From: Streptomyces sp. cg36
GTDB taxonomy: Bacteria; Actinomycetota; Actinomycetes; Streptomycetales; Streptomycetaceae
DNA length: 64,000 nucleotides
Assembly: GCF_041080675.1 (NCBI RefSeq)
Contig: NZ_CP163520.1
Location: 2,790,001-2,854,000 of the forward strand
Reading direction: 5' to 3'
Below are positions 29,178-36,345 of this stretch, in pieces. Under the pieces are notes generated by a model. That model had not been told where the DNA came from. It worked only from the letters and a program-made list of their open reading frames with translations, and did no database searches. The translations under genes were made by a program, and so were the position numbers. Every line of letters starts with the position of its first letter. Within the stretch, counting starts at the first letter, position 1.

Positions 29178-30356
29178 TCAGTAGACGGGCTTCTCCGGCT
29201 CGATCTGGTGGACCCAGCCGATCACGCCGCCGCCGACGTGGACCGCGTCCGCGAAGCCCGCGGACTTCAGCACCGCGAGCACCTCGGCCGAGCGGACGCC
29301 GGTCTTGCAGTGCAGCACGATGCGCTTGTCCTGCGGGAGGTCCTGGAGGGCGTTGCCCATCAGGAACTCGTTCTTCGGGATCAGCTTGGCGCCGGGGATC
29401 GAGACGATCTCGTACTCGTTCGGCTCGCGGACGTCGATGATCTCGATCTTCTCGTCGGCGTCGATCCACTCCTTGAGCTGCTTGGGAGTGATGGTCGAGC
29501 CGAGCGCCGCCTCCTGGGCCTCCTCGGACACGACGCCGCAGAACGCCTCGTAGTCGATGAGCTCGGTGACGGTCGGGTTGGCGCCGCAGACCGCGCAGTC
29601 GGGGTCCTTGCGGACCTTGACCTGGCGGTACTGCATCTCCAGGGCGTCGTAGATCATCAGTCGGCCGACCAGCGGCTCGCCGACGCCCGCGAGGACCTTG
29701 ATGGCCTCGGTGACCTGGATGGAACCGATGGACGCGCACAGCACGCCCAGCACGCCGCCCTCGGCGCAGGAGGGGACCATGCCCGGCGGCGGGGGCTCCG
29801 GGTAGAGGCAGCGGTAGCAGGGGCCGTGCTCGGACCAGAAGACGGACGCCTGGCCGTCGAAGCGGTAGATGGAGCCCCAGACGTACGGCTTGTTCAGCAG
29901 CACGCACGCGTCGTTCACCAGGTAGCGGGTGGCGAAGTTGTCGGTGCCGTCGACGATCAGGTCGTACTGGCTGAAGATGTCCATCACGTTGTCGGCCTCG
30001 AGCCGCTCTTCGTGCAGGACGACGTTCACGTACGGGTTGATCCCCAGCACCGAGTCCTTGGCGGACTCGGCCTTGGAGCGGCCGATGTCGGCCTGGCTGT
30101 GGATGATCTGGCGCTGCAGGTTCGACTCGTCGACCTCGTCGAACTCGACGATGCCGAGCGTGCCGACACCGGCTGCCGCCAGGTACATGAGGGCCGGCGA
30201 GCCGAGGCCGCCGGCGCCCACACAGAGCACCTTGGCGTTCTTCAGTCGCTTCTGCCCGTCCATCCCGACATCGGGAATGATCAGGTGGCGCGAGTACCTG
30301 CGGACCTCGTCTACGGTGAGCTCGGCAGCCGGCTCTACCAGGGGTGGCAGCGACAC
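29178..30356 (-). CDS. moeZ: MoeZ: adenylyltransferase/sulfurtransferase
   Basis: The 392-aa protein starts at GTG 30356 with AGAGG 6 bases upstream. The N-terminal MoeB/ThiF domain has VLCVGAGGLGSPALMYLAAAGVG and VDGTDNFATRYLVND, with zinc pairs CYRC and CAVC. The C-terminal rhodanese domain (about 290-392) has the active loop HCKTGVRSAE with its catalytic cysteine. MoeZ adenylates and sulfurylates ubiquitin-like sulfur carriers (MoaD, ThiS, CysO), feeding molybdopterin, thiamine-thiazole and cysteine synthesis, as well as thio-modified natural products. A SigR-type promoter overlaps the end of the preceding gene, fitting a role in thiol metabolism under stress. Confidence 0.96.
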   Translation of the reverse strand: MSLPPLVEPAAELTVDEVRRYSRHLIIPDVGMDGQKRLKNAKVLCVGAGGLGSPALMYLAAAGVGTLGIVEFDEVDESNLQRQIIHSQADIGRSKAESAKDSVLGINPYVNVVLHEERLEADNVMDIFSQYDLIVDGTDNFATRYLVNDACVLLNKPYVWGSIYRFDGQASVFWSEHGPCYRCLYPEPPPPGMVPSCAEGGVLGVLCASIGSIQVTEAIKVLAGVGEPLVGRLMIYDALEMQYRQVKVRKDPDCAVCGANPTVTELIDYEAFCGVVSEEAQEAALGSTITPKQLKEWIDADEKIEIIDVREPNEYEIVSIPGAKLIPKNEFLMGNALQDLPQDKRIVLHCKTGVRSAEVLAVLKSAGFADAVHVGGGVIGWVHQIEPEKPVY

Positions 30357-30409: not shown

Positions 30410-30435
30410 AACACTGCCACGGCACTCCTCATTCC
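30410..30435 (-). promoter_or_regulatory. SigR-type promoter of moeZ
   Basis: On the minus strand GGAAT (30431-30435), an 18-bp spacer and GTT (30410-30412) match the SigR consensus, about 55 bp before the moeZ start. The -35 element overlaps the stop codon of the spherulin-like gene, which separates moeZ from the carbohydrate operon. Confidence 0.75.
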
Positions 30436-31178
30436 GAGATACCAGGTCCGATCCGCGAGACAATTTCGTCCCAGTAGCCGGGCAGCGTCTCGAAGGGGTC
30501 GTCCTGGCCTCCCCGGTCGCCCCGGTCGGTGAAGTAGATCGTGCCCGCCCCCTGCCAGCGGGCGACCCGCAGCGCCTCTTCGAGGTGGTTGCGGGGCACC
30601 CCGTGGACGAAGTGGCAGAAGCGCTCCGGCGGGTGGTCGGCGGTCCACTCGGCCACCTGGGACCAGCGGTACTCGCTCCACGGCCCGTTGAAGGTGACCA
30701 GCTGGTCGGCGGTCTCCGCGTAGCCCGGATACGGGTGGGAGCCCTGGCCGAGCACCAGGTGGGCGCCCTCGCGCAGGGCGCGCAGGGTGGACACCGTGCG
30801 CCGCACCTCCGCCAGCGCGTCCCGGTCCGTGGGACAGCGGTCCAGCAGGAAGCCGTCCACCCGGTACCAGTCGAGGAAGCGGTGCGCGTCGGAGACCAGC
30901 TCCCCGAAGGGGCGGGTCCCGTGCGCGCAGTCGAGGTGGCCGAGGACCCGCACGCCCGCGTTGCGCAGCTTCCCGGCGGCCTCCAGGCAGTGCGGGTCGG
31001 GGCGGGAGCCGGGGCCGTCCGCGACGTTGAGGACGGTCCAGTGGAGCGGGGTGCCCGGCCGGGTCAGCTCGGCCCACTCGGCCGGGGCGACCAGCGGGTG
31101 CGCACAGCCGGGGACGCCGAAGCCGACCCCGCCCGAGGTCGTCGCGCGCGTGGCGCCGGTGGTGGTCAGATGCGGCAC
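30429..31178 (-). CDS. Spherulin-4/GH135-like glycoside hydrolase
   Basis: The 249-aa protein resembles spherulation-specific family 4 proteins: a TIM-barrel pattern with VGFGVPGCAHPLVAPAEW, GVRVLGHLDCAHGTRPFGEL, DWYRVDGFLLDRCPTD, TFNGPWSEYRW and GAGTIYFTDRGD. In the related fungal Sph3 (GH135) and bacterial PelA hydrolase (GH166), conserved acidic residues on the barrel cut alpha-1,4-galactosaminoglycans; D and E residues in LDRCPTD and NGPWSEY could fill that role. No signal peptide is visible, which is unusual for such an enzyme. It overlaps the epimerase gene by 13 bp, so it belongs to that operon. Substrate and direction (degradation or processing during synthesis) are inferred. Confidence 0.78.
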   Translation of the reverse strand: MPHLTTTGATRATTSGGVGFGVPGCAHPLVAPAEWAELTRPGTPLHWTVLNVADGPGSRPDPHCLEAAGKLRNAGVRVLGHLDCAHGTRPFGELVSDAHRFLDWYRVDGFLLDRCPTDRDALAEVRRTVSTLRALREGAHLVLGQGSHPYPGYAETADQLVTFNGPWSEYRWSQVAEWTADHPPERFCHFVHGVPRNHLEEALRVARWQGAGTIYFTDRGDRGGQDDPFETLPGYWDEIVSRIGPGISE

Positions 31179-32137
31179 GCCGCCTCCATCCAGATGTCGG
31201 CCAGCGACTCCTCCAGATTGATCCGGGGCCGCCAGCCGAGCCGGTCGCGCGCGGTGCGGACGTCGGCCTGCTGCCAGCTCCCGCAGCCGTCGGGGTACGG
31301 CGCCGGGGCCCCGGCCAGGTGCTCCAGGACGGCGTCGGCGGACGGGCGGGGCGCGCCGATCACCCCGCCGCGCAGCCCGGGCGGCCCGTCGAGCTCGTGC
31401 AGCGCGCCGCCGTATCCGGCGACCCTGGCGAGGACGGCGGCGGCGTCGCGGAGCTTGACCGAGCGGCCGGTCCCGATGTTGACGACGCCCTGGGCGGCGG
31501 AGAGGGAGGCGGCGTGCACGGCGCGCGCCACGTCGCGCACGTCGACGAAGTCGCGCTGCACGCCCAGGCCGCCCAGTTTGAGCTCGCCGTCGCCGGACTG
31601 CATGGCGCGGCGCATGGCTTCGGCGAGCCGGCCGAGCGGGGACCCGGCGGGGGTGCCGGGGCCGACCGGCGAGAAGACCCGCAGCACGATGGCGTCCAGG
31701 CCGGAGCCGAGGACGAGTTCGGTACCGGCGAGCTTGCTGACGCCGTACGGGCCGCCGGGGCGCGGTACGGCGTCCTCGGCGGTGGAGGAGCCGGGCTGCG
31801 AGGGTCCGTACTCGGAGGCGCAGCCGAGCTGGACCAGGCGCGCGCCGCAGCCGCTGCGGCGCAGGGCCTCGCAGACGGTGGCGACGGCGACGGTGTTGTG
31901 CCGGGTCAGTTCGCGGGCGCCGCCGCGGGTGGCGCCGGCGCAGTTGATGACGACCCCGGGGTGGACGGCGTCCAGGAAGCGGGTGAGGGCTCCCGGGCTG
32001 CCGGAGGCGAGGTCGAACCGGACGTCGGCGTCGTCGCCGCGCCCGAGCGCGGTGAGCTGGACGGCCGGGTCGGCGAGCAGGCGGTCGGCGACGAAACGGC
32101 CCAGATATCCGTTGGCACCGAGCAGTAGCACCCTCAT
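31166..32137 (-). CDS. NAD-dependent epimerase/dehydratase
   Basis: The 323-aa protein is a short-chain dehydrogenase of the extended type: N-terminal MRVLLLGANGYLGRFVA nucleotide-binding loop, CASEYGPSQPG, and the catalytic YGVSK (Tyr-x-x-x-Lys) at about residues 145-149. The C-terminal part (GGLGVQRDFVDVRDVARAV, GWRPRINLEESL) is typical of nucleotide-sugar epimerases. It probably interconverts UDP- or dTDP-sugars for the glycosyltransferase of the same operon. The ATG overlaps the stop of a 17-codon frame as ATGA. The specific sugar cannot be read from the sequence. Confidence 0.85.
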   Translation of the reverse strand: MRVLLLGANGYLGRFVADRLLADPAVQLTALGRGDDADVRFDLASGSPGALTRFLDAVHPGVVINCAGATRGGARELTRHNTVAVATVCEALRRSGCGARLVQLGCASEYGPSQPGSSTAEDAVPRPGGPYGVSKLAGTELVLGSGLDAIVLRVFSPVGPGTPAGSPLGRLAEAMRRAMQSGDGELKLGGLGVQRDFVDVRDVARAVHAASLSAAQGVVNIGTGRSVKLRDAAAVLARVAGYGGALHELDGPPGLRGGVIGAPRPSADAVLEHLAGAPAPYPDGCGSWQQADVRTARDRLGWRPRINLEESLADIWMEAACRI

Positions 32138-32187
32138 CGCACGGCCTTTCCGTGCGGTCGGCAGGAGGCCGGGGGCAGGGCGGTCAT
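32134..32187 (-). CDS. 17-codon ORF coupled to the epimerase gene
   Basis: MTALPPASCRPHGKAVR begins at ATG 32187 with AAGGAG 10 bases upstream, a much better ribosome site than that of the epimerase. It ends ATGA on the epimerase start. It most likely works as a translational-coupling leader; a functional microprotein is less likely. Confidence 0.5.
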   Translation of the reverse strand: MTALPPASCRPHGKAVR

Positions 32188-32219
32188 GTGTCTCGTTCTC
32201 CTTCGGGCATCAGTGCGCG

Positions 32220-33602
32220 TCAATGCGTGTAGTGCTGTTCGGGGGTCGGTGGAGGTGCGGAGTGGGCCGAGGCGCGGGCGAGGACCGCGGTGGCCCGGAC
32301 GAGCAGGACGAGGGCGACGGCGCCGCACAGGGCGGCCGGTACGGCTCCGGCGCCGCCCGCCGTGACCGCGGCCTCGACGGGCCGCGCCAGGAAGCCGCAG
32401 CCCGGCAGCCGCCCGGCGAGAACCAGGGCGAGGACGCCGGCCTCGGCGCAGGCGGCGGCCCGCAGCCCGGCCACGGCGGGCGCGGCGAAGCCGTGCAGCG
32501 CCAGCAGCCGGGCCAGGAAGAGCAGCGCGCCGGGCGCGGCGGCGGACGCGAACGAGCCGTGTCCGTACGCGAGTCGACCGATCAGGAGGAGCGCGGCGAG
32601 GGCGGCGAGGTAGAGGGCGACCGCGCCGAGCAGCAGCGGGCGGGAGCGGCCCGCGAACTCCTCCAGGCCGCGGCTGGTGACCAGGCCGCGCCGGGCCCGT
32701 ACGGCGAAGAGCCGCGCGCACCAGGCGGCGGGGGCGACGGCCAGGGTGAGTCCGACGGCCGCGGCGGGGTCGGCGGCCCAGTCGCCCGGGGCGCCCCCGG
32801 GGCCGGTGTCGGGGCCGCCGGTGAGCAGGGCGTCGAGCAGTCCGTCGCCCGCGACGGCGTAGGCGGCGAGCCAGAGCGCCCACGGCAGCCCGGCGCCCCG
32901 GCCGGCCCGCAGGGGGCCGTGGCGCAGGGCGTGGGCGAGGGCCGCGCCGACGGCGGCGGTACCGGCGGCGAGCACCGCCAGCCGCACCCCGCCGACGGTG
33001 AGCCGACCCGCCGTCACCGTGACGGCGCACAGGGCGCCGGGCAGCAGCGCGCCGAGCACCCTGAGCGCCCGGCCGGAGCGCGGGGGCGCGGGGTCCGGGT
33101 CGTCGCGGAGCGGCTCGCTGCCCCGGGGCACGCGCGCGTAGAGCTCCTCGGCGAGCGAGAAGACGTCCCGGTGGCGGAACCGGGCGGCGGTGCGGTCGGT
33201 CATCCCGTGCGCTTCGAGCCCGGCGGCGATCTCCAGTGGGTCGACGGCCCGTTCGCAGAGTTCGCGATGGCGGTGCATGAGGGCCTTGACGGGGTCGGCG
33301 GGTCCGCGCCGGGGGCGAGTGCCGGGGGCGGGGGTGGCCGGGGCCGCTCGCGTACTCGCGGCCTTCGTCGGGGCGGGGCCCGAATCCCCTTCCGCGGCTT
33401 CCCCGTTGGGGGCGTCGTCCGTGGCCGCGTCCTCCCTCGACTCGACTTCGCTGCCGAGCGCCTGGGAGGGGATGGGACGTCTCGGTACCGGGTCCGCGAG
33501 CAGGGCTTCCGAGCGGATGTCCCAGGCGCCGGCGCTCTCGGGGGCGCGCGGGATGTCGCTCTCGGCGGGGCCGTCCGTCGGGCGGGTGGTGGGCGGGGTC
33601 AT
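32220..33602 (-). CDS. Polytopic membrane protein of the carbohydrate operon
   Basis: The 460-aa protein starts at ATG 33602, overlapping the glycosyltransferase stop (ATGA). The first 170 residues are soluble: a disordered stretch, then a helical domain (KALMHRHRELCERAVDPL, GLEAHGMTDRTAARFRHRDV, LAEELYARVPRG). About eight membrane helices follow (from LRVLGALLPGALCAVTVTA to ALCGAVALVLLVRATAVLA). It may export or anchor the polymer, like PelG or another polysaccharide flippase, but no such family motif is evident. Coupling to the PelF-like gene supports a shared function. The family is not recognised. Confidence 0.75.
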   Translation of the reverse strand: MTPPTTRPTDGPAESDIPRAPESAGAWDIRSEALLADPVPRRPIPSQALGSEVESREDAATDDAPNGEAAEGDSGPAPTKAASTRAAPATPAPGTRPRRGPADPVKALMHRHRELCERAVDPLEIAAGLEAHGMTDRTAARFRHRDVFSLAEELYARVPRGSEPLRDDPDPAPPRSGRALRVLGALLPGALCAVTVTAGRLTVGGVRLAVLAAGTAAVGAALAHALRHGPLRAGRGAGLPWALWLAAYAVAGDGLLDALLTGGPDTGPGGAPGDWAADPAAAVGLTLAVAPAAWCARLFAVRARRGLVTSRGLEEFAGRSRPLLLGAVALYLAALAALLLIGRLAYGHGSFASAAAPGALLFLARLLALHGFAAPAVAGLRAAACAEAGVLALVLAGRLPGCGFLARPVEAAVTAGGAGAVPAALCGAVALVLLVRATAVLARASAHSAPPPTPEQHYTH

Positions 33603-36229
33603 CGCGTCGCCTCCTCGGCGTGGGCGGAGCCGAAGCCGGGCGGGTCGGTGACGGAGAGATCGGTGACGGTCAGGTCCGTGACGGAGAGGCCGGTGACGGT
33701 CAGGTCCGTGAGCGTGGGGGCCGTGGCCGTCTGGTGCGCGCAGCCCGGGCACGTCGAGGCCCGGGGGATCACGACGGTCGGCTCCGCACCGCTGGACACC
33801 GGCTGCACGGGCGCGGCACCGGCCCGCCGTGCGGCGTCGGCGCGCACGGCTTCGAGGCGCACGGTGTCGTCGGCACGCACGGCTTCTTCGGTACGTGCGG
33901 TGTCGAGGCGCACGGTGTCGTCGAGGTGCACGGCGTTGTCGGCACGTGCGGCTTCGTCCGTACGTGCGGTGTCGAGGCGTGCCGTGTCGGTGCGGGCGGC
34001 GGGCGTCTTCGGTGCGGCCGGGGGGCGGGACGCGGCCTCCGTACGCGCCGCCGGGTCCGCCCAGCTCGGGGCGCGCCCGGTGGCCGGGGCCGTCGCCGCC
34101 GTCCAGTTGCCGGGGACGTGGGCCTCGGCGGGGTGGGCGAAGGGCACCGGGTCGCCGCTGCCGTCGAGCGTGTCGCGCTGGACCGGGCAGTGCGACATCA
34201 GCTCCAGGTAAATGCCGCGAAATGCCGCGAGGTTCTGCTCGACGGTGAAGAGTTCGAGGGCGCGGGCCCGGGCGGCGGCGCCGAGGCGCTCGCGGCGTTC
34301 CGGGTCGCGCAGCAGCGCCACGCACGCGTCCGCGAGCGCGCGCGGGTTGCGGGGCGGTACGACGAGACCGGTGCCGCCGATGACCTCGACCACGGCGCCC
34401 GCGTCCGTGGAGACCGTGGCCCGGCCGCAGAACATCGCCTCCACCAGGCTGACCGGGAAGCCCTCGACGACGCTGGAGAGGACGACGACGCTGCCCGAGC
34501 CGTACGCGTCGGCGAGCTCCGGCGCCTCCGGGCCGCCGATCTCCTCGAAGGAGACCGGGTTGTCGCCGACCGCGTGCGCGTCGGCGGCCTCGTCGGGGAA
34601 GAGCTGGGCGGCGAGGGCGCGGCAGTGGGCGAGGTAGGCGGCCGACTCGGGGGGCAGTCCGGCGGCACCGGCGTACCCGTGCGCCCCGCCGGCGCCGAAG
34701 CCGCCGTACGCGGCCGGGCCGTACCCCTGACCGCCGGGGGCGGCGTGCCCGGCCCCGGAGTGTCCGGCCGGGGCGCTCGTGGTCCCGCCCGTACCGAACC
34801 CGCCGGTCCCGAACCCGCCCGCGCCGCCGTCCGGGCCGCAGGGGCCACCGGCCCCGGGCCCGCGTCCGTAGGCGTACCCGTCCGTGCCGGACGCCTGCCC
34901 GTCGGGGGCAGGCTCTCCCCGGCCCCCGCGAACGCTCGCGGCGGGGCCGTACGACGGGGTGGGCCGGGCCGCGTAGAAGATCCGCAGGCGGGCGTCCGGC
35001 TCGGCCCGGCGGACCTCCGCGAAGGCGTGCAGCAGGGCGATCAGGTCCTTGGTGGGGTCGATGCGGCCGACCCAGACCAGGGTGGCGGGGTCGCCCCCGT
35101 TCGGCTCCTCGCCGACCGTCTGGAAGCGCTCGGCGGCCATGCCGGGGTACACCGTGCGCAGCTTGGCGCGGTCGGCGCCGCACTTCTCCTGCCAGCGGCG
35201 GGTGTGGGTGTTGCCGGGGGTGATGAGCGCGGCCCGCTCGTACACCTCGACGGCGAGACGGCGGTGGAAGGCGGCGAGCAACGCGCGCACGGGGGCGGGC
35301 ACTTCGCTGCTCGCGAGGTACTGGGTGCGCAGCTGCACCCCGTACTCGGTGACCAGCAGCGGGACCCCGAAGAAGCGTTTGGCCAGCAGACCGGGGAGGG
35401 CGGCGGAGCCGCCGCCCGCCGCATGGCAGAGGTCGACGTCGCCGAGGCCCGCCTCGTCGTACCAGTCGAGCGAGAGCGGGCGCAGGGCGCGCTCCAGGAG
35501 GTCGGCGAAGGCGAGGTAGTCGGGGACGCGGGCGGTCGCCACCGCGCGGTTGGCGCCCGGGGCGCGGCAGGCGGCCTCCAGGATGCGGACGGCCGTCTCG
35601 GAGCGGAGCGCGGTGTGCAGGCCGCCGCTCTCGCGGGCCAGGTCGGCCAGTCCGTACAGCGCCTCGGCGAACCGGGCGGCCCCGCCGGCCGGGGCGGCGG
35701 CCGGGCCCGTCGCGGCCTCCTCCTCGGGGGTGAAGGCCGCGCCCGCGACGGGTCCGCCCACGAACGCGGCTCCCGCGAACGCCACTCCGGGCATCCCCGC
35801 CAGCCCCGCGCCCCCGGCCGCGCCCCGGCCCGGGTCGCCTCCCGCGCCTTCGCGCGCGTGCCGGGCGGGGGCCGGGCGGTCGGCGGCCGGGCCCGGGTCG
35901 CCGGGCGTCCCGTCCGCGCAGATGGCGTCCGCCAGTTCGCGGAAGCAGCCCGCGAAGCGGTGCCGCTCGCGGCGGCCGTAGGCCCGGCCCGCGCGGCCCC
36001 GGGTCCAGGGGTGGCCGCCGTCCTGGGGGGCCCAGAGCGGGGCCGTGCGGACACGGCGGACCTGGGGCGGCAGCGCCACCCAGCCGCGCTCCTCCTGAGC
36101 CGCCGTACGGCTCAGGGCGTATATGTCGAACTCGTGCCGCGCGAGCCCGCGCACGAGCCGGTCGCACCACAGCCTGGACTCGCCGGTCGTGTACGGATAT
36201 CCGCCGTCGGTGAGCAGTCCGACCCGCAT
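33599..36229 (-). CDS. PelF/DUF3492-like family 4 glycosyltransferase
   Basis: The 876-aa protein starts at ATG 36229 (MRVGLLTDGGYPYTTGES). The N-terminus matches DUF3492 of PelF glycosyltransferases (GGYPYxxGE..WCDRLVRGL). The C-terminal GT-B domain has LVWVGRIDPTKDLIALLHAF, GDNPVSFEEIGGPEAPELAD and VVVLSSVVEGFPVSLVEAMF, with the GT4 E-x7-E-like motif. PelF uses UDP-sugars to polymerise the Pel polysaccharide. Two unusual parts exist: a glycine/proline/tyrosine-rich insert (about 440-530) between the Rossmann-like halves, and a 200-residue repetitive tail (DTVRLDTARTEEAVRAD and LTVTDLSVTD units) ending with CPGC. It is the first gene of the operon. Confidence 0.8.
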   Translation of the reverse strand: MRVGLLTDGGYPYTTGESRLWCDRLVRGLARHEFDIYALSRTAAQEERGWVALPPQVRRVRTAPLWAPQDGGHPWTRGRAGRAYGRRERHRFAGCFRELADAICADGTPGDPGPAADRPAPARHAREGAGGDPGRGAAGGAGLAGMPGVAFAGAAFVGGPVAGAAFTPEEEAATGPAAAPAGGAARFAEALYGLADLARESGGLHTALRSETAVRILEAACRAPGANRAVATARVPDYLAFADLLERALRPLSLDWYDEAGLGDVDLCHAAGGGSAALPGLLAKRFFGVPLLVTEYGVQLRTQYLASSEVPAPVRALLAAFHRRLAVEVYERAALITPGNTHTRRWQEKCGADRAKLRTVYPGMAAERFQTVGEEPNGGDPATLVWVGRIDPTKDLIALLHAFAEVRRAEPDARLRIFYAARPTPSYGPAASVRGGRGEPAPDGQASGTDGYAYGRGPGAGGPCGPDGGAGGFGTGGFGTGGTTSAPAGHSGAGHAAPGGQGYGPAAYGGFGAGGAHGYAGAAGLPPESAAYLAHCRALAAQLFPDEAADAHAVGDNPVSFEEIGGPEAPELADAYGSGSVVVLSSVVEGFPVSLVEAMFCGRATVSTDAGAVVEVIGGTGLVVPPRNPRALADACVALLRDPERRERLGAAARARALELFTVEQNLAAFRGIYLELMSHCPVQRDTLDGSGDPVPFAHPAEAHVPGNWTAATAPATGRAPSWADPAARTEAASRPPAAPKTPAARTDTARLDTARTDEAARADNAVHLDDTVRLDTARTEEAVRADDTVRLEAVRADAARRAGAAPVQPVSSGAEPTVVIPRASTCPGCAHQTATAPTLTDLTVTGLSVTDLTVTDLSVTDPPGFGSAHAEEATR
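33648..33707. repeat. 30-bp tandem repeat in glycosyltransferase tail
   Basis: GTGACGGAGAGATCGGTGAC... occurs twice (33648-33677, 33678-33707, one or two mismatches), encoding LTVTDLSVTD repeats. A second degenerate array of 30-45 bp units around 33830-33985 encodes the DTVRLDTAR repeats. Both keep frame. Confidence 0.8.
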
Positions 36230-36307: not shown

Positions 36308-36345
36308 CCGGTGGCGCGATGGACGGTTGTCCATCGCGCCACCGG
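36308..36345. terminator. 17-bp hairpin ending the opp operon
   Basis: CCGGTGGCGCGATGGAC and its exact complement flank GGTT. It lies 75 bp past the oppDF stop and 79 bp before the glycosyltransferase start, separating the two operons. Confidence 0.85.

Follow-up and report, generated by a model that had tools for sequence, protein, structure and literature searches.

A widespread Streptomyces operon that may be an altered duplicate of a galactosamine-polymer operon and carries a likely pseudo-glycosidase

The DNA analysed here, called the window, is a stretch of 64,000 nucleotides from Streptomyces sp. cg36 (assembly GCF_041080675.1, contig NZ_CP163520.1, positions 2,790,001 to 2,854,000; host genome of 9.0 Mb in three contigs). 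The subject is an operon of four overlapping genes, all on the minus strand (36229-30429), which code in this order for a glycosyltransferase (GT), a membrane protein (MEM), a short-chain dehydrogenase/reductase (SDR) and a Spherulin4 protein (SPH) and are followed 72 bp on by a moeZ-like gene. Operons resembling that of the window are called A-type (kind A), and a fuller, paralogous kind of operon is called B-type (kind B). The features of the locus are as follows.

33599..36229, minus strand: DUF3492/GT4 glycosyltransferase of the PelF lineage, A-type; 876 amino acids (aa), PF11997 (DUF3492) 89 bits (Pfam cut-off 23.3), assigned also by tree and by the retained EX7E pair and Arg/Lys
32220..33602, minus strand: membrane protein; 460 aa, with an N-terminal helical domain (aa 104-157) and eight transmembrane (TM) helices
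32134..32187, minus strand: 17-codon leader frame over the ribosome site of the SDR gene, from a survey of short frames
31166..32137, minus strand: extended SDR (NAD-dependent epimerase/dehydratase/reductase); 323 aa, PF01370 (Epimerase, Pfam) 128 bits
30429..31178, minus strand: Spherulin4 (GH135-like) protein with GTG start; 249 aa, PF12138 (Spherulin4) 76.1 bits (cut-off 30.2), aligned with Sph3 (5c5g, E 4e-6)
29178..30356, minus strand: moeZ-like ThiF/rhodanese gene, the kept downstream neighbour that marks A-type loci; outside the proposed mechanism
36308..36345, minus strand: perfect 17-bp hairpin, its loop 4 nt long, situated by direct reading between the GT gene and the opp ABC genes

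The GT and MEM genes overlap in an ATGA and the SDR and SPH genes by 13 bp, and the 17-codon frame has its own ribosome site and an ATGA overlap with the SDR start; the overlaps described in an earlier note on this DNA, made from its letters alone, are exact at each of these junctions. In 27 of the 28 loci for which a start was found (counted by eye), a short frame (mostly of 9-27 codons) runs up to the start of the SDR gene and ends there. The A-type locus L109 is without an ATGA leader frame. Coding for a small protein was considered for the 17-codon frame and rejected because its sequence is unconserved, and the frame probably serves translational coupling only. The name moeZ is based on the domains of the protein and not on a family search, and the hairpin is perhaps the terminator of the opp genes. 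As a unit the operon is real, and its functional label is a separate question.

The survey of the four-gene order that the earlier note had proposed finds it conserved, the order GT-MEM-SDR-SPH-moeZ being present in 26 of the 28 A loci of Streptomyces genomes and in 71 of 80 GTDB loci (among them L223, whose GT fits the B reference better). The two exceptions among the former are L077, with an unrecognised 255-aa frame at the place of the membrane gene, and L115, which is ended by a contig edge; the remaining nine GTDB loci are short stretches of 5.7-12.7 kb lacking the GT gene, or both the GT and the membrane gene. In other genera of the family, A-type operons with moeZ were likewise read at 11 loci. 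Of 199 Streptomyces genomes, 187 have a Spherulin4 match with an E-value of 1e-20 or lower, and in 178 (counted by eye) the best match lies under 1e-70, a level reached only by the A-type among the loci examined. A draw of 394 genomes from across the class contains 43 with a match, of which 38 belong to the genus of the window and five lie outside it. GT, SDR and SPH are under purifying selection, with the lowest ratio of nonsynonymous to synonymous substitution rates (dN/dS) of the three in SDR. Both the conservation of gene order and the purifying selection are strong.

Profile searches and phylogenetic analysis place the window GT close to PelF, the glycosyltransferase of Pel polysaccharide operons. 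Its score for the PelF equivalog NF038011 (NCBIfam) is 77.0 bits and that of the A-type GT of L070 is 77.7 bits, both short of the cut-off of 100 bits, whereas the B-type paralogue in the same genome reaches 173 bits. In a tree of 60 GT rows, built without the A rows L109, L112 and L122 and without three rows of the outgroup, the A enzymes are monophyletic (support 100), with a stem length of 1.33 changes per site. They join the PelF-equivalog B enzymes of Streptomyces with a Shimodaira-Hasegawa-like approximate likelihood ratio test (SH-aLRT) value of 98, and this group adjoins the PelG-linked PelF enzymes (93 for the whole). Since the outgroup branches are 3.5-4.8 long, the root is weak. Judged by this tree with its weak root, the window GT belongs with the PelF-type GT4 lineage rather than with other GT4 enzymes; the label PelF-like of the earlier note therefore holds for its branching beside PelF (support 98-100) and fails at the equivalog cut-off. 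The residues R325, K330, E405 and E413 of PelF are essential. Among A-type GTs the EX7E pair is kept in 43 of 45, the remaining two having Asp-x7-Glu, and the Arg and the Lys are each kept in 25 of 28. The His of the TEHG motif of B enzymes and PelF is Tyr in all 28 A rows and in the 11 A rows from other genera; it is retained in the GTs of two A loci, L141 and L144. A-type GTs differ in length, and that of the window contains a low-complexity Gly/Ala insert at about aa 415-545 (window 34640-34985) and a C-terminal tail of low complexity rich in Thr, Ala and Asp (window 33600-34110).

The fuller paralogue of the operon lies in the same genome, 2.9 Mb away, at the second place that combines DUF3492 and Spherulin4 (L063:6559-13243, contig C1, about 5.70 Mb). 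It consists of genes for a CE18-like protein, a PelF GT, a membrane protein, a Spherulin4 protein and a GH114 protein. The CE18-like protein matches Agd3_CE (E 1e-4) and CBM87_Agd3 (E 0.006), both below the cut-offs, and no solved structure was matched by it; the GH114 protein has a lipoprotein-like start, and its best solved relative is Ega3 (6oj1, E 9e-56). The genome has a single CE18-like and a single GH114 gene, both at the B locus and neither at the window locus. Bacterial agd3 operons, according to the accessible passages of PMC7229062, code for a cytoplasmic GT and a multi-spanning membrane protein, often for a GH114 protein and, in some Actinobacteria, for a spherulin-4, and the B locus looks to be of this kind. 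The window operon shares with them the GT, the multi-spanning membrane protein and the Spherulin4 protein; it differs in having no CE18 deacetylase and no GH114 protein, and in possessing an SDR, a Spherulin4 protein devoid of the Glu discussed below and a shorter membrane protein. Paralogy of the window operon with an Agd3/GAG-type galactosamine-polymer operon (GAG, galactosaminogalactan) in the same genome is supported.

The 29 B-type places examined comprise ten of a B1 subgroup, 15 of a B2 subgroup and four from other actinomycetes; several end at the edge of a stretch or contig, or are without GH114. The B1 layout is CE18-GT-MEM-SPH-(GH114), mostly beside pepA/cobS genes, and the B2 layout is CE18-GT-MEM-dehydratase-nucleotidyltransferase-SDR-SPH-(GH114). 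The SDRs of B2 are 39-44% identical to that of the window (49% for a fragment in L091), so the A-type most resembles a B2 operon minus dehydratase and nucleotidyltransferase. The B2 set of dehydratase (LegB-like), nucleotidyltransferase and SDR is seen in L080, L081, L083-L085, L087, L088, L090-L097 and L255, and it suggests that some Streptomyces GAG-like operons involve an unusual activated sugar. Families of the B2 sugar genes were searched for in L080, where the dehydratase scores 453 bits as LegB-type (cut-off 475) and its neighbour 135 bits as mannose-1-P-guanylyltransferase-like (cut-off 440). G057 is from another family, and there a GalE gene (337 bits, cut-off 262) stands at the head of the operon. 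Two genomes of the window's phylum, from outside its class, carry a mixed Pel/GAG operon (L138:6447-13139 and L139:6321-13078), in which a CE18-like gene comes after PelF and PelG and a Spherulin4 gene lies on the opposite strand.

The membrane protein of the window gave no match to any Pfam family. Its predicted model contains eight long helices at residues 175-447, as the earlier note had read from the sequence. Profile alignment connects A-type and B-type membrane proteins (hhalign 99.7%, E 2.9e-25) and leaves about 100 residues of B unmatched, and median TM counts, which are crude, are 8 for A (n=27), 11 for B1 (n=10) and 10 for B2 (n=14); on these predictions the A-type protein is shortened by about two to three TM helices compared with B. 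It may possibly have a fold like that of the MOP (multidrug/oligosaccharidyl-lipid/polysaccharide) flippases such as MATE, MurJ and WzxE. These have 12-14 TM helices, more than the eight of the window protein, which matches none of them as a sequence family. A Foldseek fold search, for which the Spherulin4 model was not used as query, gave no match at E 0.001, and no similarity emerged when the profiles of the membrane proteins were compared with PelG. PelG itself (PF16933) has no match in the genome of the window, bearing out the earlier statement that classical PelG is missing; among 396 Actinomycetota, 13 have PF16933 matches, seven of them above the cut-off, including a partial match of 30.9 bits in Streptomyces G203. 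PelD and PelE gave no family match among the four proteins, the genome not having been searched for either. With the Gram-positive Pel operon pelDEA(DA)FG, as outlined in the accessible text of PMC7112168, the window operon has in common a PelF-lineage GT, a membrane protein and an epimerase-type gene; it differs in missing the PelF cut-off, in having no PelG in the genome and in having no deacetylase at the locus.

The closest named database relatives of the Spherulin4 protein are from Streptomyces. For Sph3, the GH135 enzyme with which it was compared, the numbering is D166/E167; chain positions 116 and 172 of 5c5g are Asp and Glu, which an offset of 50 turns into residues 166 and 222. In PMC12054363 the Glu is given as Glu222, and the Asp appears there with the number 196. 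Window protein and Sph3 share the Spherulin4 family, many fold and aromatic residues and the catalytic Asp (Asp166, kept as Asp113), whereas the acid/base Glu222 is aligned with Asn164, and the window protein has no signal peptide or membrane anchor. In the Glu222 column, Glu is found in none of 29 A loci, 120 database homologues, 80 GTDB loci and 18 further loci (11 of these from other genera), i.e., in 0 of 247 rows from overlapping sets, 233 of them distinct, the replacement being mostly Ser; over the first 29 and the 18 further loci, the window included, 0 of 47 keep it. By contrast, Glu occupies this column in non-A spherulins: in 28 of 28 B rows, seven of seven further rows and six of six added ones (L068, L069, L082, L092, L138, L139; outside the initial counts, which were based on a gene caller), 41 of 41 altogether. 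In these counts the split spherulin of L147 is left uncounted and the fragment of L122 is counted. The catalytic Asp is present in 18 of 29, 110 of 120 and 77 of 80 A-type rows, in all 11 loci of other genera and in two of the seven loci L140-L146. Sph3 Glu167 corresponds to Arg in the window and is uninformative, the position being non-Glu in A and in all 28 B rows. Of the 67 columns conserved in B spherulins, 50 are retained in A, among them W20, W89, W151 and W162.

This comparison of active sites rests on alignment and not on a model, because the AlphaFold2 barrel of the A-type Spherulin4 protein has a predicted local distance difference test score (pLDDT) of 34, a low value that we think stems from an alignment of close relatives only. 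Asp218 and Glu169 were considered as relocated acids and rejected, the former because it looks ancestral (it is present in relatives that retain the Glu), the latter because it is not kept in other genera. A signal-peptide-like start was found in none of 46 A loci and none of 120 homologues by a simple hydropathy rule, which is crude in that it flagged the GH114 control and missed the CE18-like control; by the same rule, 28 of 29 B-operon spherulins look unsecreted and four of six other spherulins look secreted. The dN/dS of SPH is 0.16-0.43 in ten of ten close pairs. Since the protein is constrained and has lost its acid/base Glu, the A-type SPH is likely a pseudo-glycosidase. The claim of the earlier note that a polymer is trimmed here is not supported, this Glu being absent from every A-type row read; of the catalytic acids it had asked about, the Asp is kept in the window and the Glu is lost. 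Several B-operon spherulins (e.g., L063:11712-12347) keep both Asp and Glu and have a shortened or changed C-terminal end at the site of the last strand of longer relatives; their activity is not assured. In L082 (8606-9328), a Glu-keeping Spherulin4 gene stands among unrelated genes, in a stretch with no GT or membrane partner.

The SDR is altered as well. The catalytic triad of such enzymes is Ser/Tyr/Lys; the Ser is replaced by Cys106 in the window and by Cys in 48 of 48 A-type proteins, against Ser in all 15 readable B2 proteins, and the Tyr and the Lys are kept in 48 of 48, as is the nucleotide-binding motif GxxGxxG in the window. The best solved relative is the GDP-6-deoxy-lyxo-hexulose reductase 2pk3 (E 6.6e-20). 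The subtype is not readable from the sequence, no NCBIfam cut-off being reached.

The order oppDF-GT-MEM-SDR-SPH-moeZ is found in S. violaceoruber NRRL S-981 (L239), a species close to S. coelicolor. In S. coelicolor, SCO5178 is annotated as moeB, a putative sulfurylase, in the accessible text of PMC4340878, and SCO5174 as a transferase and SCO5175 and SCO5177 as hypothetical proteins in that of PMC3610822. From these annotations and the gene order, and not from a sequence comparison, the window locus therefore appears to be SCO5174-SCO5177. The part of PMC3610822 available lists SCO5174, SCO5175 and SCO5177 among the genes most changed between first (MI) and second (MII) mycelium, with log2 values of +2.2 to +3.8 in MII versus MI at 24, 48 and 72 h, and the rise of the three in MII is reported as at least 8-fold; SCO5176 is absent from that table. 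The published S. coelicolor data thus suggest that the operon is switched on in differentiated mycelium. A SCO5174 mutant, listed under cell envelope homeostasis in the accessible text of PMC6585502, makes less actinorhodin. Within the open-licence literature covered (titles, beginnings of abstracts and passages, supplements excluded), no paper characterises the function of the operon.

Judged from tree, profiles and alignments, the common ancestry of GT, MEM and SPH with the B operon, the lost Glu and the conservation are well founded. The explanation that we favour, with moderate confidence and evenly poised between acceptance and doubt, is that the A-type arose long ago as a duplicate of the B-type and has since been altered, and that it forms a glycan-making, development-linked complex with a non-cutting, glycan-binding hydrolase barrel. 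In such a complex, the cytosolic GT would draw on a nucleotide sugar, supplied or adjusted by the SDR, to make a glycan, and would work on the possibly MOP-like membrane protein. The barrel of the Spherulin4 protein would bind the nascent chain in the cytosol without cutting it, for length control, handing-over or as a scaffold, and the system would act in differentiating mycelium and affect the envelope. We infer the activity of the GT, and binding rather than cutting by the Spherulin4 protein, and the galactosamine content and the export of the product are guesses by descent. A bolder version, which we offer tentatively and regard as doubtful, holds that duplication of the whole operon was followed by a joint re-tuning of its active sites (loss of the hydrolase Glu, Ser to Cys in the SDR, usually His to Tyr in the GT) and a cutting-down of the transporter, giving a near-core, development-switched pseudo-enzyme assembly of the Streptomycetaceae in which a dead galactosaminidase barrel serves as intracellular subunit for glycan binding or sensing.

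The replacements in all 247 SPH rows and all 48 A-type SDRs, and the usual one of the TEHG His by Tyr in the GTs, in proteins held by purifying selection, would also suit a non-catalytic regulatory module that makes no polymer, senses a glycan or nucleotide sugar and controls the B operon, wall synthesis or development. We consider this rather unlikely, however, as the EX7E pair, the Arg and the Lys are kept in most A-type GTs and TEHG in two of them, and the SDR, which retains Tyr and Lys throughout, shows a lower dN/dS than the other two proteins measured.

The SDR itself might point in another direction, to a short glycan or glycolipid for the developing wall, possibly with a 6-deoxy sugar, for which the link to galactosamine would be ancestral only. 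Its nearest solved relative is a reductase of a GDP-6-deoxy-hexulose, its B2 homologue adjoins the LegB-type dehydratase and the mannose-1-P-guanylyltransferase-like gene, and the membrane protein is too short for a standard transporter of 12 TM helices. Yet the A locus lacks both the dehydratase and the nucleotidyltransferase, and with a subtype that cannot be read from the SDR this proposal is unlikely. Least probable is the interpretation of the earlier note, in which a functional, minimal Pel-like operon would polymerise a galactosamine polymer, export it and trim it: the PelF-lineage GT with EX7E, the possibly MOP-like membrane protein and the Spherulin4 family membership speak for it, but trimming is at odds with the missing Glu and signal peptide, the PelF cut-off is missed, PelG has no match in the genome, the CE18-like and GH114 genes are at the B locus only, and the membrane protein is shortened.

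The operon is widespread in Streptomyces and, through its apparent S. coelicolor counterpart, tied to development-stage expression data, with fuller and altered versions of a glycan pathway in one genome. It is more notable than an ordinary exopolysaccharide operon because the widespread altered copy shares its genome with the fuller copy and seems to be linked to development. The pair of A and B operons is well suited to testing what role a glycoside hydrolase without its acid/base residue plays inside a polymer-making complex, and it bears on the source of the galactosamine in Streptomyces walls, to which the accessible passages of PMC7229062 refer.

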